From: Polytrichum commune
Lineage: Eukaryota > Streptophyta > Polytrichopsida > Polytrichales > Polytrichaceae
Assembly: GCA_950295325.1 (NCBI GenBank)
Contig: OX485809.1
Location: forward strand, 34,534,001-34,598,000
Direction of reading: 5' to 3'
DNA: 64,000 nucleotides
Part shown: positions 19,511 to 64,000 of the stretch, piece after piece
Numbering within the stretch: the stretch's first letter is position 1
How the letters are laid out: each line of letters opens with the position of its first letter
Position numbers and translations under genes: made by a program
The notes under the pieces: model-generated
Databases searched by the model: none
Told to the model about the DNA's origin: nothing
The model's input: the letters and a program-made list of their open reading frames with translations, nothing else

Positions 19511-20632
19511 CAGGGCTGTTGTTTCACAAAGTTTTTACCCGTCCACGTCCCAAAACCTCGAATTGAAAGGCAAAAAAAATTGCAACCCGTCCCAAAACCG
19601 GTAATTTCAAAACCAACCCGTCCATGGAAAGGTTGAAGAAAAAACAACCCGTCCCAAAACCGGTAATTTCTAAACCAACCCGTCCATGAAAAGGTTAAGG
19701 AAAAAACAAATCGATAAAGATAACCCGAAAGATGTCGGCATGTGATTGGTGCACTTGCCACTTGGAAACAATAGTATCTTGCTATCTTCGTTCATTTCTG
19801 CTTTTTCTATTATAATTACCAATTTGCCAGCCTGCCACTGCCCCATTTTGTCTGTTTGTCCACATACTAGTTCAAAGAAACTGAACTAGACTCAGTCACT
19901 CAAACTCAACCGGTTCATTTGAAACTAACTCGAATTCAAGAAGTTGGAGAGTGCCGCTGGAACAATCTCCTCCTACAATCTTGAACTTCAACAAGTGTTT
20001 TCTCAAACTCAACCGGTTCATTTGAAACTAACTCGAATTCAAGAAGTTGAAGAGTGCCGCTAGAACAATCTTCTCTTGCAATCTTGAACTTCAACATGTG
20101 TTTTCTCAAACTCAACCGGTTCATTTGACGACTGCAATCAAGTTATCTCTCACCGGTCTCTCAGTTGCTTTAGCTTTTAGTTGCATATGTTCGATTCATT
20201 AGCATCCTAAATCTTGAGAGTCTTATTCCTCTCTTTTGTTGTGGGTTGAGTGCAGATTCGAGGGCTGTGCAGGAAATTTCTGTCAATTCGAGTTAAACCC
20301 TAGCAAATTGCAAGGTTGAGCTTGTACGTTGTTGGGTCAATGTATGAGTAGATATTTGAGCCTTACATGTGCCTAAGATGGTGGAAGCGTTGTCTTTGCA
20401 AGGATAGTGCAAGCGTTGTCTATTTATTAGTTGGATTGATTTTGCAGGTTCAAGTCTCAAGCCCCATCATGATTCCGATTAATTTTTAAAAATGTTATTT
20501 TTAGAACCCGTCCAAAGTGAATTTGACACGTCCCAAAACCGGTTCATTTTCTAAGAACCCGTCCACTGGAAATGTTTTTTTTTATGAACATGTCCCTAGA
20601 CATGTTAGGGACCTTGTGAAAAAACACCCCTG
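19511..20632. mobile_element. Complete non-autonomous hAT-type element, 1122 bp
   Basis: The left end CAGGGCTGTTGTTTCACAA and the complement of the right end (CAGGGGTGTTTTTTCACAA) form an imperfect terminal repeat with few mismatches, bounded by a perfect 8-bp duplication AGTGTTAC. CAGGG-type ends with 8-bp duplications are diagnostic of hAT transposons. Both subterminal zones are packed with ACCCGTCC and AAAACCGGT words (19538-19690 and 20501-20580), the layout of transposase-binding sites in Ac/Ds-like elements. A pair of 62-bp tandem units lies at about 19583-19706. No transposase frame is present, so it must depend on a relative elsewhere. Confidence 0.92.
19899..20135. repeat. 103-bp tandem repeat nested in the hAT element
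   Basis: CTCAAACTCAACCGGTTCAT recurs at 19899, 20002 and 20105, giving exactly 103-bp spacing and about 2.3 near-identical units. The unit contains the terminal block of the AACCGGTT-rich MITE family (GAACTTCAAC-CTCAAACTCAACCGGTTCAT), so it seems to have grown from a MITE end. The minus-strand open frame at 19936-20124 is a by-product of the repeat. Confidence 0.85.
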
Positions 20633-20640: not shown

Positions 20641-21136
20641 GTCAAACCTCACCAACAACAACATGTTTGTGGCACTCATTAAATGCAACCTAATCACAAT
20701 CCGTTTTGTAAGGCATTTTTAGCAAAGACCAACATTATTTCAGTGTAAACGGGAAACTCAGACGCATCCTCAGAAGCATCTTCACACTCCAAGGCAAGGG
20801 ACTGAGGCAGTAGGAATAATAAGCATAGAACAATCTAATCTCTAGTATGATTTGGTCTTGCCAATTTCCTGTGTTCACATTGCGGGAGGCAACTTACAAA
20901 GTTGCAGAATATGTCAGTTGCATAAGTGGTGATATGTAATGTTATTTGAAGGTGTGCTTGCAGAAATGTAGAGTTAAATTCTCTCTCCTGGGAACTCACT
21001 CGTCTTCCGTGAGATGAGACAAGATTTGCATTGCAATCAGGGTGTAGGGTTTAGGGAGTCTATGTGTTGGCTGAGTAGCAGATAAACCCCATGCGAGGGG
21101 AACGCAATCAGAGAGTAAGAATCCACATACATACAA

Positions 21137-21172
<36 letters not shown>

Positions 21173-21488
21173 GCATAAAAAAAAAATCTCTTCTTTCCAA
21201 TCAGGAGATGATTGAAAGCCCGGTTCTTGCAGAAACTTGCTTTTTAGCTGTTGGATAGGTTGGAGGCTGGCTAATCCAGTCGCTGACATTGTTCCAGGAT
21301 ATGTATGATGGACGACTTTCGTATCCATGAAACTCATTTGTTGGTGTAGCTCATTATCTCGGTGATCATAGTTGGGTCATCGAATGCTCTGTTTTGGATT
21401 TAAGATGATAGGTTTTTTGAAGCAGACGTAATTGATGCACTGCTTCATTTGCACATTTGGGCTACAACCGGTAATATATATATCAGCC

Positions 21489-21590
21489 ATGGCAGCAGGG
21501 AGTTTCTTGATGCAGAAACTCGCTTTCTTCATATCTAAGTTTTGGGATATGTATGATGATGGACATTTCTTTCATATACATGAAACATGA
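21489..21590 (+). CDS. Short upstream ORF in duplicated leader, copy 1
   Basis: 33-codon frame beginning MAAGSFLMQ, from the ATG that matches the third methionine of the PORR frame. It diverges after four residues and stops. It would act as an upstream ORF if transcription starts above it, otherwise it is a relic of the duplication. Expression is not shown. Confidence 0.3.
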   Translation: MAAGSFLMQKLAFFISKFWDMYDDGHFFHIHET

Positions 21591-21725
21591 GAGCTCATTT
21601 TTCTCGGTGATCACAGTTGGTTCACCGAGTCTTTGTTCTGGACCACAGATGATATGTCTTCTGAAGCAGGCATAATTGATGCACTGCTTCATTCGCACAT
21701 ATGGGCTACAAATTGGTGAAATCCA

Positions 21726-21824
21726 ATGTCAGCTATGGCACCGGGGAGGTTGCGTATACGACATCCGACATGGTTTTCACGATGTATCCTCAGTATATCC
21801 ACAGTGGCTGTGTTTAGAGTATAG
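21726..21824 (+). CDS. Truncated PORR presequence copy
   Basis: 32-codon frame starting MSAMAPGRLRIRHPTWFSR, nearly identical over its first 12 residues to the presequence of the real gene (MSAMAAGRLRIRQ), then reaching a stop. It is rich in Arg and Ser and lacks acidic residues, as organelle presequences are. It could be a decoy or regulatory upstream ORF, or an abandoned first exon. Confidence 0.35.
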   Translation: MSAMAPGRLRIRHPTWFSRCILSISTVAVFRV

Positions 21825-22031
21825 GGTTTAGGTTGAGGACGGGCTAATTCAGTCCCTAACAATGTTCCGGGGTATTTATGATGATGGACAATTCTGTTAT
21901 ATCCATGAAACTTCTTGGTGGAGCTCATTTTTTCGGTGATTACATTTGGTTCATCGAATGCTCTGTTTCTAGACTAAAGATGATAGGTCTTTTGAACCAG
22001 ACCTAATTGATTCGCTACTTCGTCCGCACGT

Positions 22032-24784
22032 ATGGGCTACAAATTGGTGATATCCATGTCAGCCATGGCAGCAGGGAGGTTGCGTATACGACAACCACGA
22101 TACGTGCAATGGAGGCATCTAAGAACACAGGTGCATCCTCGAGATGTTGACCGAGATTATGCCAAGAGGCCTCGACCATGGACAGAGCCAGGAGTCATGC
22201 GGTTTCCCGAACTCGAGTTTGATAAGGTGGCTGCCAAGCAACATGCATTTCGGATGGTCATGCAAGTTCAGGAGCTTCTGGCCAGGCATCCAGAGAGGTT
22301 GTTAGACATCATAGAGCTTGAAACAAGAAACCCTAAGTTGGCTGCTGCCGTAAGAGCATACCCCGGGGTCTTCAAGGTTCTGGATTACTGGCAGGGGAAA
22401 AGATTGGTTTGCTTTACAGCAGAGGCTGAATCTCTGCACAAACAAGAGGAAGGGTTGAAAGCAGAGATTGAGATGCGGTCTGTTGGTGTCCTCCAGAAAT
22501 TGCTTATGCTGTCTGTTCAAAGGCAGCTTCCATTGAGAAGGATAGAGATGTTGGCCATGGACCTTGGTCTGCCTGGTGACTTCCAGCAGGATTTGCTGGG
22601 GCGATTTGGACATGTTTTCAGGCTCTCTACAAAAAGTGATTACATCACTTGGTTAAGCCTCGTTGCGACGGATCCCGAGTTGGCAGTCAGCTGTGCTGAG
22701 CTTCAACACAAGCAACGAAGGCCTGGTATGTATAACTCAATTCTTTGTGTTTTGTGTTCTGTTTTGTGCATTTTATTTGGGTATCATTCCATCTCTAAGC
22801 GCCACTTTACACTATGACCATGAAATTGTGAGGGCCCTTGAACCTCATTCAAAGGTGGTGCATGGAAATTGAAATTGGATATTGTGTGGGTATGGGTGTC
22901 CAAGTGTAGTGTAAAGATATATGAGACTGGGCTCTCAACTGAATGCTATTTTATTACCATCTTATTCATTTGGGTCCTTCTACACAGTAAGTTTTAATAA
23001 ATCAAGGGTTGTGAGATTTTGAATTGTCTTGATGATGCAAATTTGGTAGACGATGAAACATTCTCCAATTCATGCCATGGAGGACTTCATGTAGGTTTTC
23101 AATTCATTCAAACTTCCATGGTCCCTCAGGCCCTCAAGCTCTAGTGTAAAGTGGCCCTAGGTATATTCTGTGGCAGGGTGGATATTTGCACCAATCTGTT
23201 TGTTTGGACAAGGCAGTTGTGCATCAGAGACACTTTCTTGAGTAAAGTGTAGTTGGTCAAGCAGGTCATATACTGATGTATCTATTTCACATTAGCTTTT
23301 CCCTTCCCTAAATATCCGAAGTCGCTCAATCTGAAATGTGTTCTAGATTCGTGTTGTGATCTCACATACAATTTTCTTCCTAATCTGAAGCACCTTTGAG
23401 CAAATTCTTTGTGGAAAAGTAGGATTGTGGAGATCTGGCTTTCTCTTATATCCTAAGTGTCCTTCCTAAAGTCCACAAAGAATTTGTGATCTGCTTTTGA
23501 CATGATACTTGTGTAATATCCACAGTTCTGATTGTAATATTAATGACAGTTTTCCTTGACATTAATGACTGAAAGATTACCTGATGTTACAGGGGTCTCC
23601 TACTGAAACTGCTGACACTATCCCTCTCCAATTTCTTTTCTTCTGTGGGATGTCACTCTGCTCTCCACCCCTTCAAGCAATCGCAGGGAGTTGCTTACAT
23701 AACAACCTTCCTACAATCATCGATTGGTGATTAGTAGTTGGCATATAAAATTGAGGATTATCTAACATTGACATATCACATCTATTGTAGTATATTGAAG
23801 ACTGTAGGCATATATGATAATCACAGCTAGTATGCTTTCCATAAAAACAATTTGGCAAAATCAACACAATCAAGCATAGATCATCAGTATTCTGAAAATA
23901 TTCTGAAATGCTTTGAACAAAATGGAGTACATTTGAGGCTATGTACAGCTTTCTGACCTAAAACTTCTATTAGTAGAAGAGGACTGTTTCAGACTTTATT
24001 CGCATGCAGCCTACCATATTTGTTGAGGTCTTATTTTGTTGTTTCTGAATATGCTGCACTTCCTTTTATGACTTGATGAGGCGACTAAAAGTGGCTCATA
24101 TTGTTATTGTTATGGATGTCGAGTTGGATTGTCTGATTGATTGACTACAAGATCAGGCTTATGCTCATAACCTCTTCTCTTGATCATATTGGAGCATAAC
24201 AAGAGTAGTTTGCATTTGGTACTTTTCAGATTGCTCATTAATCAAGCCGTTTGCCTCTCTTGCAAATCTAAAAAGATCTCTACTTCTCAACGAGGACTTT
24301 TTTTTATTGGAGGTTAACTTTGATGTGTACCTTGTGTGCTCCAGGAATGATGACTGAAATGGAAATGTGGATGCCTAAAGGGAACATTCTTTCAAAGAGG
24401 CATCGGAAGTTTCTAGCGCGCTTTCGAGAAGCCCCTTTTGTGTCACCATATGCAGACTCTCAGGGATTGAATTCGCTTGATATTAAACTGGAAAGACATG
24501 CTGTTGCAGGATTGCATGAGCTTTTGAATCTAACTTTGGAGAAGAGCCTCATGCTCGACACCCTGACAGGATTCAAAACTGAGTTTTCTTTTTCCCACAA
24601 ACCATTGAATCTAGCCCTGCGGCACCCAGAACTCTTTTATGTATCCGCAGTCAATAAACAGGATGTGGTGTTTTTACGGGCAGCCTATGACAGAGGCAAA
24701 TTATTAGAGAAGAACTCACAAGTGTTGCTAAGGGAACAATTTGTCAAGCTACTAGAAACAGGACTAAATCAACAAGGAAGCTAA
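22032..24784 (+). CDS. PORR-domain organelle RNA-binding protein (WTF1-like)
   Basis: Two exons, 22032-22725 and 24346 minus one, that is 24345-24784; the GT-AG intron is in phase 1. The product is up to 377 residues. An Arg-rich, organelle-targeting-like N-terminus (about 1-45) precedes a PORR domain filling the rest: FPELEFDKVAAKQ, LLDIIELETRNPKLAAAVRAYP, VLQKLLMLSVQRQLPLRRIEM, LGLPGDFQQDL and the C-terminal FSFSHKPLNLALRHPELFYVS are typical blocks. Family members (maize WTF1, Arabidopsis WTF9 and RPD1) bind RNA and promote group II intron splicing in plastids or mitochondria, and the length is usual for them. In-frame ATGs lie at 22032, 22056 and 22065. Comparison with the two upstream copies of the leader favours 22065 (GCCATGG context conserved in all), so the longest start is only a default. 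Target organelle not predictable here. No other gene nearby. Confidence 0.9.
22726..24344 (+). other. Intron 1 of the PORR gene
   Basis: 1619 bp, donor G|GTATGT and acceptor CCAG|GA. Joining restores the frame across a glycine codon. Contains a 355-bp MITE near its 5' end. Confidence 0.85.
22801..23155. mobile_element. GGGCCACTTCACACA-type MITE inside PORR intron
   Basis: Perfect 14-bp inverted termini GCCACTTTACACTA / TAGTGTAAAGTGGC. The interior shares TGACCATGAAATTGTGAG, GGTTGTGAGATTTT and CATGCCATG-AGGA blocks with 32167-32767. Flanking duplications are not clear, so the superfamily (hAT or Mutator-like) is undecided. It begins 76 bp after the donor and leaves both splice sites intact. 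Confidence 0.8.
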
Positions 24785-38625: not shown

Positions 38626-39241
38626 ACTATGATAATATATGAAAGTTACAAGTTTGAATTTAGTGTTAGTAAGGATATGAAAAAGAAAAAAGATATAATA
38701 AGGGAGGTGCCAGTAGGGAAAGTAGTGGCACATTTATGTCTAACACTATTTGTCAAAAAATTAAAAATTAGTGCTGAGCATGGTAGGGTGGTAAGAACAC
38801 TAAATAAAATCAAACACAAAATATAATATTTTGTGTAGTGTAGTGTAGTGTAGTTCTGACCCCAGACACCGGCCATATGCTCCCAGGTCTATGACTGATC
38901 CTTTCGGCTCCCGTACCTCCAAGGCAAGGCAAGGCAAGGCAAGGGGCTGGTGGGGGCTTTGTCTACAGACCTGATCATCATGTGCTCGTGCTTGTATTCG
39001 AAAGCACAGCACAGCAAAGGGAATGCAACTGTACATTGTCATTTGTCGCCCGGGGGGAGGGGGGCACTTTTGTATGATAAAAGGCCCTGGCCCGGCCGCA
39101 TCTCAACAAATCTCCAAAACTGTTGAATGTTTCAAGCTCGTGGTTCCTAGCGCTATGGCCCTGGGGTTCTGCACCCCCCCCCCCCCCCAAGCCTTTCCCT
39201 TGTACATTTCGAATAATGTGTGGCACGACAATCATTGCGGG

Positions 39242-40216
39242 GTCCCTCCGAACAACACACGTAAATGGGAATATTGGAACTGTATTAGCTTGAACTACAT
39301 AGTGAGGTGAGGTTAGGAAACATTAATTAACTTCTTTGAAAGCCGAGATGCATGTTTTTGTCTGGGTAGTCATCGTCACCTGACCACATTTACGCTAGGA
39401 TCTTATGATTGGGGCATGTAGACGGGTGGAAACTTGCGGAGTCCCTCTGAACAACACACGTAAATGGGAATATTGGAAATGTATTAGCTTGAACTACATA
39501 GTGAGGTGAGGTTAGGGAACATTAATTAACTTCTTTGAAAGCCGAGATGGATGCTTTTGTCTAGGTAGTCATCGTCACTTGACCACATTTACGCTAGGAT
39601 CTTATGATTGGGGCATGTAGATGGGTGGAAACTTGCGGAGTCCCTTCGAACAACACATGTAAATGGGAACATTGGAACTATATTAGCTTGAACTAGTGAG
39701 TAAGGTTAGGGAACAATAACTCTCCTCAAGGCACCGAGATGGATGCTTTTGTCCAGGCAGTCATTGTCACTTGACCACATTTACACTATGATCTTATGAT
39801 TGGGTAACGTAGACAGTTGGAAACTTGCGAGTCCCTCCGAACAACACATGTAAATGAGAACATTGTAAATGTATTAGCTTGAACTAGTTAGTGAGGTTAG
39901 GGAACATTAACTCTCCTCAAGGCTGAGATGGATGCTTTTGTCCGGGCAGTCATCGTTACTTGACAACATTTACACTATGATCTTATGATTGGGGCATGTA
40001 GACGGTTGGAAACTTGCGGAGTCCCTCCGAACAACACATGTAAATGGGAACATTGGAACTGTATTAGCTTGAACTAGTTAGTGAGGTTAGGGAACATTAA
40101 CTCTTTTAAAGGGCCAAAATGGATGTTTTTATCTGGGCAGTCATCGTTACCTCACAACATTTAGGTCATGGTCTTATGATTGGGGCATGTAGACAGTTGA
40201 AAACTTTGTGTGAACA
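39242..40216. repeat. Five-copy tandem array, unit 190-199 bp
   Basis: GTCCCTCCGAACAACACA-like starts lie at 39242, 39441, 39640, 39831 and 40021 (spacings 199, 199, 191, 190). Every unit holds AAATGGGAA-ATTGGAA, TATTAGCTTGAACTA, GGATGCTTTTGTC and ATCTTATGATTGGG. The first two are most alike and divergence grows rightwards. A C-homopolymer (about 39174-39189) lies just before it. Confidence 0.9.
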
Positions 40217-56420: not shown

Positions 56421-58932
56421 AACTGAGGTTATGATGTTGAAGTGGAGTGGAATCTGTTGCTCCGAGCGTGATGGTAGCAGGATTGAGGAACAGTAGTATT
56501 CTGTAGAAGAATTAGTCAACCTCTTGGGTTAATTCCTCGGGATAGAGATCCGAAGTGCAGTGTGACAGCTCGCGCTGTGTTGATAGGGAAGCATTGCTGA
56601 TGGAACTAGTTCATCTCTCTGTTTGTCTCTCTGTTCCGGAACGTGTAGAAAGGCTAAACGTCTTTGAGCGCTTATGGTTGCGGAAAATTCCAGTTGTCAC
56701 TTAGTTTACTTCCATGCACGTGCACTAGTATGTCCGGTTAAGAAATACGTCAAGGCTCGCGTAATGAAGGAATTTTCTTGAGTATGCTTTGTGCTTAAGC
56801 GAAATTTCTTTATCGCCTTTTCACTCATATTTGTGCTGTAACAGGCTCAAAAGGAAGTGGTGTAAGTCTACCTAAAGATCACACAACGCAAAATTATTTT
56901 TTGATTGCTAAGCACATGAGGCTTGCTAAGCTTGAATGTAGCGCTATTATTATTTTGATGAATCGACTTAGTCCGTGAACACAACCTCAACTGTCGAGGT
57001 TCCTTCAAAGCACAACTATACACAGTGAACCTCCATTTCGATATGCACACCAACTCAAATTTCTGGAGAAAATTCTTGGTCATGGAAAATTGTAACACAT
57101 CATGGCGCAAACAGAGACATGGGGAAGACAAAGCTAAGTCTCGTCTTAAGGGAATCTATTGTCCTGTAGAGTAGATTCTTTGTAGGTTCCAAACATAGTT
57201 TAGGTTGCATTTATTGCACGCGCTGCTCATTCCCATCAAGTTGCATTTTGTTGTTACATCTCTGTTGTAGTAAGTACTAAATTACGTTGAACGCAAGTAC
57301 GCTCAATGTAGGTAGAGAGGGGAGTAGTTTGCAGTTAGAGATTTATATTTATTTCCCATGGAGAGTTAGTTTGCAGTTTGGCAGAGCCGATTGAGCTCAT
57401 GCCGTGAATTTGTGATATATCACTACTGTTTAGAGTGTACTTTTTGCTTTTATTAATTGCAGATGCGACTCTCTCTTTATAAAACTCTGCATGCCGCCGT
57501 ATTGACTCATGCCACGGCATTGATATCATGTTCCATTCTCGTTCAAGATTATACCAAAAGTATTTTATCCATATTGACTTGAGATAGACTTTTGAGAACA
57601 GGGTGGAGAGTGCTTCTTGCGCACATTGGAGGAACCGGAAACTACGGTTACTCCGGGACATTACGTTGACAACGAGCTTTTGGAAACCAGCTCAGCACTT
57701 GGCCACAGGTGGATTCAATCGCCAACAATACAGCAACCAAAACATGCATCTCTAGCATAACTTTCTTGGGATTTGAAAGCTTACATTACTTTCCTGTAGC
57801 ATGTATGAAGTCGGACGTCCCAACTATTCTACAGGACATGCATCCAAAGTACAACGGGGGTAGGTTTGTCACTCTTTAACCCATACTTGATTGTGCTCTC
57901 TAGTGAATTTTTAGTTTAACTAAAGTAAGAACTACTTCATTCTGGTCTACCCAGTCTTTATTAATCATCCTTCTGCCTTCACCAAAACCAGAATTTTCTA
58001 TCTCCTTCACTTTCTCTCCTCCGTCTGCACTCCGCTTTGCACCATGTAGACACTTCAGGTGCGTGAGAAGATCGGCATCATTCTTTGTAGAACTGAACTA
58101 ATATGGCAGAGAGATCCTTTGAGAGCAACTAATCTCTCAGATTGCTGAATATGTCAAGCCTCATTGAAGCCTCTAGCTAATATCGGCCTAATTCTAGTCT
58201 GTTAGTTCTCTCTTAGGGATAACTTGGTCTAGGTCATTCTTTGACAAATTTGTCTCTTTGAATGCTAGTGTAGTTCTAACGGTCGTAGATTAAGACGTGA
58301 ACGTGGGTGTTCAAATATTGTTCTGATTTTTGAAGGCTTCCTATTGCTCGTTGATACACTACTGCTGTACATCCTCTGCTCAATTATCGTCGTAATTGCA
58401 GAAAGTGCTCCAGCTTTAGGCGTTGTGTGGCCGACGATCAGTTCTCCGTGGAGGTGGTACGACCTTGGATCCGTAATAGGTCAAGTATTCTGGAGATTAA
58501 CTAAGAATGACCATGGATACCATCATTCCACTACACCATAACTGACAAATTAAATGTTTCTTTCATGTAGGTGCCAAAAATCCTTTTCAGATTTTCTGTG
58601 CGAGCAATATCTTTAGCACACGTTTCTAGTTGCAGCCTAATTTGAGGTAAGTAATGATTGAGTGCCCTCCATCAAAATCTAAGCTTTGACTTATCGAAGT
58701 AGGTTGGTGGTTTGTTCGAATTTTCTCTAGCATAAGCTTCGTGACAGTGAGCACAGTGAACGGGAAGAAACGGGAGTAACAAAATCACCCAAATCCTCCA
58801 GATTATCCCTTTCATCAGTTGGTCTAAAGTATGCACTGCACTTGTGGCGTTCTCAGGACAATAAGATTACTCGGCCATTATTCATCTTGTGACTAATAAG
58901 CATTGTGCGGTGGTGTTCGCTGACCATCAGCT
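56421..58932 (+). other. EDC4 upstream region / possible leader
   Basis: No coding gene. A good donor G|GTAAGTAATG at about 58646 with acceptors near 58819 or 58900 suggests the leader may be spliced. Promoter elements could not be fixed. Confidence 0.35.
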
Positions 58933-58956
58933 ATGGATATGAATGCAGAGGGTTGA
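58933..58956 (+). CDS. Seven-codon upstream ORF in the EDC4 leader
   Basis: ATG GAT ATG AAT GCA GAG GGT TGA encodes MDMNAEG and stops two bases before the main start at 58959. Such close spacing would permit termination-reinitiation or act as a translational brake. It would remain in the leader whichever upstream acceptor is used. Confidence 0.45.
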   Translation: MDMNAEG

Positions 58957-58958
58957 AG

Positions 58959-61900
58959 ATGGGGGCTCCAGGTCCTCCAGGGCCATTTGATCTTCAAAAA
59001 TTCTTCAGAGCGCCACCTCAGAGTCCCTACCAACCTCAATCACCTGGCTATCAACCTTCGTCCCCTGGCAGCTCATTTCACCATCAACATTCATCCTACC
59101 CACCCGGAAACAGCGCTCCCAGCAACTATCAGCAAAGCACAAGTGGGTATTCCAACGTCCAGGGCTCAAACTACCCCTACAATACCACCACACCCCAGCA
59201 GTCGGGCTCCCCAGTCTACCATGGTACTCATGGTCCTCAGTACATGCATTATAATCCAGACCATGGACCTCGTCCAGTTCCTTATTCGGCTTCTCCTTTT
59301 AGTCAACAATCATCCCAATTCTCTCAACCTCCTTCGTCCCCTTCTCACTCCATCCAACCTCCACCTTCTCCCACGATGTCATCAATCCCTATGTCTTCGC
59401 AGCCGATGTTTTCTCAATCTAAATCATCCCAACCGCCGTCGCCCCTTCCTGCGTCCTCCTTACAACAAGGCAATGACAGGCCCAACACCGCCTCAAGCCA
59501 GCCATTGGATGGAGCTCGTCTCATTGCTCTCTTAACCACGCAATCTGGAGGTGAAGCTGTTGATGATGATGAGGATACACTCCCTCTACCAGGACCCCCT
59601 CTAAACTCTCCAAGGCCCCCCCTCTCATCAAGACATACAGATGGTTCTCACAGCAGTGGAGGAGATGTAGGATGTCCTCCGCCACCCATGGCCTCATCTG
59701 GACCAGGTCGGCCACCGTCTAAGTATCCAAGGGGAAGACATCTTAGAGGAGATCACATAATTTATGATGTGGATGTGCGCAAACCTGGGGAACTCCAGCC
59801 CCAGTTGGAAGTTAGTCCTATCACCGTGTATGGTTCGGAGAATGTCCTAGTATTAGGAAGGCAGATATCAGTGAACAAGAAATTTGTCTGCTATGGGTTG
59901 CGTGGTGGCCCTATACGAATTCTCAAAATCAACAGTGCACAAAAAGCCTTGCTTCGAGGCCATACACAAGTTAGTCTTCGGCCACTTATTTGCCTTCAAA
60001 TTATGTGCTTCAATGAATTCAATGACCTTTTTGACCTTTTTCTTGATACTATTTTGCCATCATAGGACGAGCACTTGGAGAATATCACTCTAATTTTCTA
60101 CTGTTGTGACAGAGGTTGAATGATATGTCCTTCTCAGAAAATGTGCATATGCTCGCAAGGTAAGCTAACATACTGCGACTCGGTGTTCAATACGTGGTAA
60201 TTGGTTTTCAATTTGTAATCAGTTCAAAATGACAATGTTTTAGGGTTTTCACAATGAAGAACTTGACAATGCATTCATGCTCCATTTCAAATGCCTGTTT
60301 CCAGACTAGTAGCAAAGAGTTCGATATACTCAAAGGTTATGGGGATATATGATCAGAGCTGCTAATAAACATGAAGATCACATATACATGGTATTATTGG
60401 AACACCTGGCTTGTTGACAGGAAACTTTCAACTAAGAATCGTTACTAATATCTTGGACTTTATGATTATTTGGTTATCTTGCAGTGCCAGTCAAGATGGG
60501 CGGATATATGTCCGTAAAATTTTGGAGGGGAATAGTGAGGATGGAAAGGTGCTAGAGCACATTCTTCTTGCTCTCCGATTAGTTGGTGATTGGGGAACAT
60601 GCCATCCTCGCCTCTGCTGGCATTCGCACCTGCAGGTCTTTCCAATTTCTACTCCCTACTACCACTTTATCACCAGAAATGGGCCCTGCTATCGTAATTT
60701 ATATAATTTCATACGCTACTTTACCTCCATAAGTTTTTGGTTAGAAATCTATATCCTATCTGATTCAGGGTTACTACGAGACTATGATGAAATTATACGT
60801 TGAAACTCTGGAAACTTCTTGATCCTGTGAATGGATGATGCCAAGCAATCTACTCTCCTCACTTATGAACTCTTTTGACATATGCAGGACACCTTGATTG
60901 TGGCAATTGGAAGATTTATTGTCGCAATTAATGTCAGCAAAGCAGGGCAAGGAGTAATACCAGGTGGATTTAATGGGGAACATCCTCTGGAATGTCGATT
61001 GGATTCTCCTGTGAAGGGGGTCTATGTGGTTGGAGAACATGAAGAGGAGGTCACAGCATTGGTCTATTCTCTGGCAGGTCCTCCTCGTCTAGCGTCAGCC
61101 TCTAAGGATGGCACGGTGAGTCCTTAGAGAATCTTTTCACTTGTAACGTCATTGGTGGAGCAGTCTAGTCAGTAGCCTTCTCGCATTGAATATTGGTGGT
61201 ATTGAGCATTTAAGGTATGATTGGCCCCTGTTTTAGCTGCTGAATCTATTATTTGGATTTGAATTGTTATATGAGGCAGTCGATGGTTCAACTTACACAT
61301 GATTGTTGCCATGAATTTTATAAGGTCCGGATCTGGGGAGATAAGATGCAGTGCTTGTCAGAGATAAGAGGCGCACATGATGGTGGTTCAGTGGATGCCG
61401 TGGCTTACTTATCGACACCACGAAGTTTTGATCGGCACATCCTTCTCACTGCGGTACTTAAACTCATCTTTCCTACACCCATAACAAGTTGAGCATCTGT
61501 CTTGGGTGACGTATTCATAACATCCTTCTATGGTCGAGTTGCATAAAGGACGACCAGAAAATTTAGGAGTACTCTTTAATTTGTACAATTGCATTTACTT
61601 TGCACTCCTGATTTGCACTGAACCTATAATGGAAAAATGAACCTAGAGTTCTATGAATTTGACTGCACACCAGCCCCTAAGCTCTGTGACTTGTTTGATC
61701 TTCTTATATTGTAAGTACCTTAGTTTTGAGGCTTTCTTCCAACTCGAGTGGATACATTTTATATCACACTCGGGATTGTCTGAAATAGTCCGCTTGAGTA
61801 GACATTGATGCTCCATAGTGTGCTGCAGGGGCCCCTGAATAGAGAGTTAAAATTATGGATGTCTGAGGAGCTATCTTTCAAGTCCAGTCCAGGAGGTTGG

Positions 61901-64000
61901 CGGTGCATCCAGACACTGGAGTTTCAGAGTAGTAGCAAGCCAGAGACTGCATTTTTTAATCATGTTGTTGTGGCCCATCGAGCAGGTCTCATTTTGGTGG
62001 CTAATGCAAAACGAAATGCAATTTATGCAATTCGTGTTGATTTTGGACCTTCCTCTGCTGCTCCTCGTATGGAGTACTTGGCTGAATTCGCTGTAACAAT
62101 GCCCATTCTAAGTGTAACGGTTGCAGATGATGCAATCTCTGAAAACGGGGAGGGCGTCCTCAAGATATACTGTGTGCAGACACATGCCATTCAGCAGTAT
62201 ACTCTTGACATGTCACAATGCTTACCCCCTGCGGACGACCTGCATTCTGAAGGCTCTACTCCCAACACTCCCAAAAAAAGCTTGATAGTGCCACACACAC
62301 CGGGGACACCCACTTCAACATCATTCTCAGCGCTGGACAAAAATTATCCCAGTTTGATGACCATGACTAATCCAGGAGTAAGCGCATCAGCGATGAGCGC
62401 CAACACTGGCATTCCCCCACGGCCATCAGCGTTTGGGAGCTTGGTTGAGAGTCGAGGTCAACTGCACGTGACAACAGATGCTCATAAAAGTTCCGAGACC
62501 AAATTCTCCACCGTGCCATTGTTAAGAGATTCTAGAGATGGACCAGGATCAAAGCCAACCACTCCGGGTGGACACGCAAATTCTGAAGCTGGAGTACAAT
62601 CGAATAGCCGACTAAACACCCGGCCTGAGGCTTCAAGGGAGGGTCTGCCATCCTCAAATCTAACTAAGCCGCCCACGCCACCTCCGAGAAGACGCGCAAG
62701 ATCAAGAAGTCCAGCGAAAGCTGATATTCAGTATAATCCTGTGTACCCTGTCCACTCCAGGCACAAAGTAGAGAAAGAAGTAAAAGACATCTGGATGGAT
62801 CCAGAACCTGCCGCAGCAGTTGAGGCGTCTCTGTCCTCGTCTAGCAGCAGCTCCTTAGACGAATCATGTGACAAAGAGGACAGAGAGGGGGCGAACTCAG
62901 GCAACTTCCAGCATCAGAGTGGACCACAACTCATTACTCCTTCTGAAATTATGTCTCTCGCGGCCAGCGCCAAGAGGGATGGTCCCCAAATTCAAGGTGC
63001 GGGCCTCGATCCCATGGACGGTACGGATTGGCAAGAGGAGGAGAAATCTAGTATGTCAGGTGGTGGAAAACCTGGAATTAATGTCACAGATGATGTGCCT
63101 GGAGGTTCAGAATCGTTGCTGGAAGCTGCTGACGATTCCTCCAACGGACATCATGCCACTGGCGTTGATTCAGTCGAGAAAGAGATGATGGCTCATAATG
63201 ATGTCTGGTCTAGCCCGGGACTTAATGACGAGGTTCAAGATGGCGATAATACGGAGGACAGAGACGAGCCCAATCCGGATGATTTGCAAGAACAGCTTAA
63301 AGGAATGGCTTTGAAATTGGGTCAAGCAAATTCTAGTCTTCCTGTAATGCAATTCCAAACGTCTGCTACTCTGAAAGGAAGAAAAAGTAAGAACAAAAAT
63401 GGTGACCGTGCTTCTGCAAACATACCTCTACCCACATCTTCGCAGTTGGCAACCATGCCTTCTGGAACAATGTCAGAAGGAGAGGCTGGCAATCCAACTC
63501 CAGCTCCAGTAGAAATCGGCTTGATTACCCAAGTGATTTCTATGCAAGAATCTCTCAACCAGGTTCTGATCCATCATACCCATGTCTTTTCACGTACCCT
63601 TCCTGTAACTGACGGCGAAAGTAATATTCAGAGGATGGACTAAGTTTTCAATCCGCCCCATGATAGCAGCCAATTGCCTTACAATTTTGAAGGAACTGTA
63701 TTGAAGATGACCAAGAAAATGAGTCAAGATATGTGGAGGCTAATTGTTTTTATCAACTAGATTGAATCGATTCATTATTGCCTCATCTTTTTTATGTGTA
63801 CCTTAATGGCCCATCTCATTGTGTTAAGATGTCCGTGGAACTCTGTTAATCAACAATTTGGACTTGATGTTATGTGATATAAAGAGATGTCATGTGATAA
63901 AAGTATGCTTGGCTCTCTCCAGTTGGTCACCGTACAGAAGGAGCTGCAGAAGCAAATTACGGTGATGGTCGCAGTTCCAGTCAGCAAGGAAGGAAAACGG
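58959..64000 (+). CDS. VARICOSE / EDC4 mRNA-decapping scaffold (5' part, runs off the window)
   Basis: Seven exons join in frame: 58959-59969, 60113-60159, 60485-60635, 60888-61115, 61325-61453, 61829-63562 and 63923-64000 (1126 codons, C-terminus missing). All introns are GT-AG. Order: a Pro/Ser/Gln-rich disordered N-terminus (1 to about 262); a WD40-type propeller (about 264-660) with plant VARICOSE blocks such as VLGRQISVNKKFVCYGLRGG, LLRGHTQRLNDMSF, ASQDGRIYVRKI, GPLNRELKLW and VYCVQTHAIQQYTLD-like; a long Ser/Pro-rich linker with many SP/TP sites (about 660-1075); then the helical C-terminal part (LVTVQKELQKQITVMVAVPVSKEGKR). The family binds DCP1/DCP2 in P-bodies to promote 5' cap removal. 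The start is the first ATG giving the usual MGAPGPPGPFD-like N-terminus; frame upstream has no other ATG. The stop met at 63643 lies in intron 6, not at the true end. Confidence 0.93.

Follow-up and report, generated by a model that had tools for sequence, protein, structure and literature searches.

The PORR gene in this region of the Polytrichum commune genome (contig OX485809.1) is preceded by diverged tandem copies of its own 5′ end. The segment that contains its leader and start codon is present three times in a row, and the third copy alone leads into the open 366-aa PORR frame. We consider it likely that the copies stem from a partial tandem triplication long ago, formed at short stretches of matching sequence, and have since been drifting, so that copies 1 and 2 would now be non-coding remains. 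The verdict is based on the sequence within one 64-kb window, by which we mean the whole stretch of DNA analysed and to which all positions refer. What the sequence shows directly is that the copies exist and have diverged, that the PORR frame is open, that the copied DNA has no first-exon donor and that constraint is not detectable. Of the three readings offered in the preliminary description, namely alternative promoters and first exons, decoy upstream open reading frames (uORFs) that tune translation, and failed duplication, the last one is the best supported. Coordinates of the features are collected in Table 1.

Table 1. Features of the PORR gene and of the repeated leader upstream of it
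Feature	Position	Strand	Basis or remark
17-nt AGGGTGTAGGGTTTAGG, possible original left edge of the repeated unit	21039-21055	+	Matches 21816-21832; weak
Head of copy 1, matched in copy 2	21222-21255	+	21228-21243 matches 21511-21526
Copy 1 of the leader module	21256-21505	+	blastn to copies 2 and 3; ends with ATGGCAGCAGGGAG plus 3 nt, ATG 21489
Copy 2 of the leader module	about 21506-21766	+	blastn to copy 3 over 21544-21766; ATGs 21726 and 21735
Filler between copies 2 and 3	21767-21815	+	No match detected to the coding sequence that follows copy 3
Copy 3 of the leader module	21829-22096	+	Alignments to copies 1 and 2; continues into the PORR gene
PORR exon 1, from the ATG in the best context	22065-22725	+	Pfam PORR, E = 3.7e-34 (exon 1 alone)
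Single PORR intron (GTATGT...CCAG), putative	22726-24344	+	Joined frame open, GT-AG
PORR exon 2 with stop codon	24345-24784	+	Joined protein matches PF11955

The two exons joined give an open frame of 366 codons, and the resulting protein matches PF11955 (PORR) with an E-value of 1e-74 over profile positions 5-324 of 326, that is, over nearly the full domain. Its first 30 residues include eight Arg/Lys and two Asp/Glu; such an Arg-rich N terminus is a trait expected of mitochondrial presequences. Searches for relatives of PORR exon 1 produced 36 pattern matches in a collection of bacterial and archaeal contigs and one in a collection of viral contigs, none of which was confirmed, and a PDB search returned five matches, the best with an E-value of 0.38. 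Within the intron, positions 22750-23499 are strongly depleted in CpG (observed/expected 0.10-0.20, 1st to 6th percentile of the window), and this depletion may reflect gene-body methylation. The available text of PMC12359027 and PMC7947098 describes PORR proteins as a family of organelle group II intron splicing factors; judging from family membership, the Polytrichum gene presumably has a role of this kind.

A blastn comparison of positions 20900-22200 with the 64-kb window linked copy 3 both to copy 2 (21869-22096 with 21544-21766; 81.7% identity, E = 1e-56) and to copy 1 (21829-22081 with 21256-21505; 78.6%, E = 5e-54), and copy 2 to copy 1 (21545-21751 with 21297-21505; 75.1%, E = 8e-33). 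The same search detected no fourth copy of the module at E ≤ 0.01. Pairwise local alignments of the copies score 147, 225 and 234, whereas 200 dinucleotide shuffles of each pair never gave more than 32, and a direct-repeat search places three families (D1-D3) at the PORR leader, each with three copies. The array is absent from the output of Tandem Repeats Finder at the default score. The proposal of three diverged copies of one module is thus borne out by blastn and by the shuffle-tested alignments. An assembly artefact arising from recent alleles is an unlikely source of the copies because they diverge by 18-25%.

What the copies retain of the gene was also described correctly. In copy 1 it amounts to ATGGCAGCAGGGAG, 14 nt at 21489-21502 that recur without a mismatch in copy 3 from 22065. 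Copy 2, which was said to keep the first dozen codons before a stop, reads MSAMAPGRLRIRHP and ends in 41 nt of presequence-like DNA; its ORF of 32 aa is terminated at 21824, and the peptide comparison given for it, MSAMAPGRLRIR versus MSAMAAGRLRIR, is right. Measured against the 661 nt of exon 1, copy 1 holds about 17 nt and copy 2 about 32 nt, and both are devoid of the PORR domain, which only copy 3 reaches, as had been stated.

The PORR ORF has three in-frame ATGs, at 22032, 22056 and 22065, with the nearest in-frame stop upstream at 22008. ATG 22065 has G at both −3 and +4, whereas 22032 and 22056 have no purine at −3, and this context favours 22065 as the start independently of the copies. 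In addition, single-base indels between the copies fall between 22032 and 22056, so that 22032-22055 does not look coding. Judged by these features of the sequence, translation most likely starts at 22065. The preliminary description had pointed to the same codon on the grounds that it is common to all copies. It is indeed the sole one of the three in-frame ATGs with this property, but the sharing is not diagnostic: four further ATG triplets, out of the PORR frame, are also common to all three copies, and sharing therefore does not single out 22065.

The repeat had been drawn from 21040 onwards. Two short matches, of 17 and 16 nt, do lie in the stretch before 21256, but most of 21040-21255 is outside the repeat. 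The 17-nt match is identical at 15 of 17 positions (p = 0.008 against shuffles) and the 16-nt match has p = 0.002; alignment of 21039-21255, which includes a CA/TA microsatellite, to the copies revealed nothing beyond these two. On the other side, no homology was detected between the tails of copies 2 and 3 (alignment p = 0.75). Copy 1 ends in GGGAG followed by TTTCTTGATGCAGAAACTC, which matches GGTTCTTGCAGAAACTTG at 21222, and the equivalent place in copy 3 reads GGGAGGTTGCG, so that GGTT is found there as well as at 21222-21225. Reading the sequence in this way, the joint between copies 1 and 2 would have formed at the common GGTT, with later drift. The head of copy 3 is AGAGTATAGGGTTTAGGTTGAGG, and about 200 bp lying between two TAGG sequences in the head of copy 1 would have been lost from it.

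These observations suggest the following scenario. The stretch immediately preceding an intact PORR gene, together with the first ~5 to 13 codons of the gene, would have been copied twice in tandem, probably at short matching sequences such as those seen at the GGTT joint and the TAGG-bounded loss, and all three leaders would then have drifted at similar rates. The most probable place for transcription to begin is copy 3 or its vicinity; the two other copies may serve, at most, as upstream promoter DNA. The order of the copying events is less consistent. The joints suggest that copies 1 and 2 arose last, in which case they should be the closest pair, and the bootstraps run against that order: copies 2 and 3 are closest in 72% of them and copies 1 and 2 in 12%, while the K2P distances between the copies (0.23, 0.22 and 0.19) are about equal.

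Drift agrees with the pattern of divergence in the three-copy alignment, in which 145 of the 199 ungapped columns are invariant and 54 are variable. Changes unique to copies 1, 2 and 3 number 21, 16 and 15, respectively, and two columns differ in all three; no pair of copies differs in these counts (binomial p at least 0.41). Slower change in copy 3, which would be a sign of selection on that copy alone, was not found, its 15 unique changes standing against 21 and 16. Clustering of the variable columns was not detected (longest run of invariant columns 10, p = 0.94; variance over 20 columns, p = 0.99). The start block of copy 2 is kept at 37 of 41 nt, with third positions accounting for three of the four changes, and its identity does not differ from that of the part upstream of it (149 of 180; Fisher p = 0.34). 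None of these tests, which with three copies have low power, clearly points to function.

A different expectation would hold if a long 5′ leader carried decoy uORFs by which PORR translation is lowered or made conditional, a possibility that we regard as improbable. ATGs 21489 and 21735 do carry G at −3 and +4, and the listed ORFs that begin at ATGs in 20900-22031 all end before the main start (the last stop is at 22006), which would permit reinitiation. ATG is also invariant in 5 of 12 cases compared with 60 of 308 for other triplets when gapped columns are excluded, but the difference is not significant (one-sided p = 0.07), and TGA (6 of 8) and GAT (5 of 9) are retained as well as ATG or better, which indicates a few well-kept GATGAT stretches rather than selection on start codons. 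No conserved uORF peptide was found between the three copies: the three pairwise alignments contain 19 gaps, 16 of which have lengths not divisible by three and break the frames, and the peptides encoded differ. Nor are ATGs rare. Translated leaders are usually ATG-depleted, and positions 21256-22055 contain 31 ATGs against 23.6 expected (enrichment p = 0.027), a count at or above chance instead of tuned low. The tuning of translation by decoy uORFs is thus unsupported, with frames broken and upstream ATGs not depleted. How many ATGs would precede 22032 depends on where transcription begins: 31 for a start near 21200, 22 near 21500, seven from 21829 and none after 21983.

The reading as alternative first exons is disfavoured by the extent of the copied segment, which breaks off within exon 1 and does not reach the donor, leaving the two upstream copies with the short pieces of exon 1 given above. 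A donor-consensus scan of 20900-22099 found a single site, 20952, that equals the 7/9 of the real PORR donor at 22726; it lies upstream of the copies. Nine sites in the scanned region score 6/9, and the ORFs that begin at the copied ATGs 21489 and 21735 contain no donor-like site of at least 6/9. The site at 20952 could in principle pair with an acceptor-like sequence at 21973 to form a leader intron, the removal of which would take out copies 1 and 2 and much of copy 3.

In the reading as alternative promoters, each copy would have its own core promoter, giving up to three transcription starts and leaders of differing length in front of the same protein. The copied DNA covers what is probably the promoter-proximal region, TATAWA sites are present at 21158-21166 and 21475-21477, and a partial 5′ duplication produces two starts in Arabis alpina PEP1, according to the available part of PMC3527215. 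However, the TATAWA sites lie in copy 1 or upstream of it and none occurs in copies 2 and 3, a core conserved across the copies was not detected, and starts near 21200 or 21500 would leave the 31 or 22 ATGs counted above before 22032. Many upstream ATGs normally repress translation. Overall, we consider separate promoters unlikely. A working array in the fuller sense, with three promoters or start regions, graded numbers of upstream ATGs, of which two have a strong context, and promoter choice setting the amount of the splicing factor, appears very unlikely.

Other properties of the leader bear on where a promoter might be. The (TA)n run at 21158-21173 is followed by a pyrimidine-rich stretch, and the two together may constitute a core promoter that precedes all three copies. 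CpG observed/expected over the 500 bp beginning at 21750 is 0.85, a value at the 94th percentile for the window and a mild hint that the active promoter region lies there. TA-rich, TATA-like runs as such occur twice, at 21158-21173 upstream of copy 1 and at 21475-21482 just before its ATG. Results of a bacterial promoter and terminator scan were disregarded, as they are not meaningful for plant DNA.

The array might also be a target of small-RNA-directed DNA methylation and so be under epigenetic control, as at FWA, the promoter of which has two pairs of heavily methylated tandem repeats according to the accessible text of PMC2270340. The same text describes the FWA repeats as dispensable for silencing, SINE-related sequence being sufficient. 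The copies of the PORR leader, moreover, differ by 18-25%, and their CpG observed/expected values of 0.61-0.71 (7-8 CpGs each) are not below the 0.52 of the window. We consider control of this kind very unlikely.

Preservation at the level of RNA would be a further departure from drift, and nothing in the leaders is distinguishable from chance or drift in this respect. A conserved fold of the three copies predicted by RNAalifold was rejected, as the covariation term contributes just −1.4 of −51.4 kcal/mol; 9 of 83 pairs are changed on both sides in some copy. The hairpin at 21359-21383 in copy 1 and its equivalents have z-scores of −3.4, −3.9 and −2.8 against shuffles, but it was picked after the fact, and the best 37-nt stretch of random 230-nt segments of the window attains −3.4 in 13 of 60 and 47 of 200 cases and −2.8 in 19 of 60 and 82 of 200. 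Copy 2 folds best at another place, 21662-21698, with a z-score of −5.74 that 5 of 200 random segments attain. The arms of this stretch (GAAGCAG/CTGCTTC) are intact in copy 1, but copy 3, the leader of the gene, has changes in both of them, and we therefore take the difference as drift. Two other stretches are weaker, among them a second hairpin (z = −1.9, −0.1 and −0.9 across the copies), and folding of whole leaders does not stand out from shuffles (z = 0.04, −1.86 and −1.81 for copies 3, 1 and 2). Scans of the window with Rfam at gathering scores and for tRNAs gave no matches.

Tandem repetition is also seen elsewhere in the window. Two arrays precede the PORR leader by about 1-2 kb, at 19583-19709 (62 bp × 2.0) and 19899-20128 (103 bp × 2.2), and the AACCCGTCC motif of the former recurs at 20503-20514 and 20554-20565. 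A further, large array at 39235-40206 has a period of 199 bp, ~5 copies and 87% matches. An antisense ORF of 126 aa at 20999-21376 has no Pfam match and was taken as chance. Long ORFs at 58893-63640 on the forward strand resemble what we take to be a gene for a VARICOSE/EDC4-type decapping scaffold; three ORFs of this candidate gene have no Pfam match.

If the array is a relic, it is a clear example of a 5′ partial duplication that leaves start codons and scraps of presequence upstream of a gene, and such leftover start codons can mislead gene prediction and the calling of starts. If the copies are transcribed, they would form a natural series of leaders with a graded load of upstream ATGs in front of one organelle splicing factor.

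The Polytrichum protein resembles the PORR proteins of Arabidopsis and rice in having a near-full PORR domain after a short N terminus, which here is Arg-rich; a leader duplication goes unmentioned in the available portions of PMC12359027 and PMC7947098. The nearest published case that we found is PEP1 of Arabis alpina, an FLC orthologue. As far as the accessible text of PMC3527215 and PMC7927791 goes, the ~2 kb duplicated in tandem at PEP1 extend from the promoter through exon 1 into intron 1, and each of the two copies gives rise to transcripts in which its own first exon is used and spliced to exon 2. The two loci are alike in that the 5′ end of the gene alone is copied in tandem, the remainder being single and common to the copies. 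They differ in that ~250-330 bp are triplicated at the PORR gene, ending ~17-32 nt into a 661-nt exon without a donor, whereas the PEP1 arrangement works through a complete first exon in each copy, which the PORR array lacks. FWA likewise has a few tandem copies of a segment at its 5′ end. In the available part of PMC2270340, these repeats vary among Arabidopsis species from none to four copies, transcription begins within the promoter repeats once methylation is lost, and the 5′ tandem repeats are viewed as a possible consequence, not cause, of regulation. The FWA repeats hold SINE-related sequence and a mapped start site, whereas the PORR copies end at the start-codon region.
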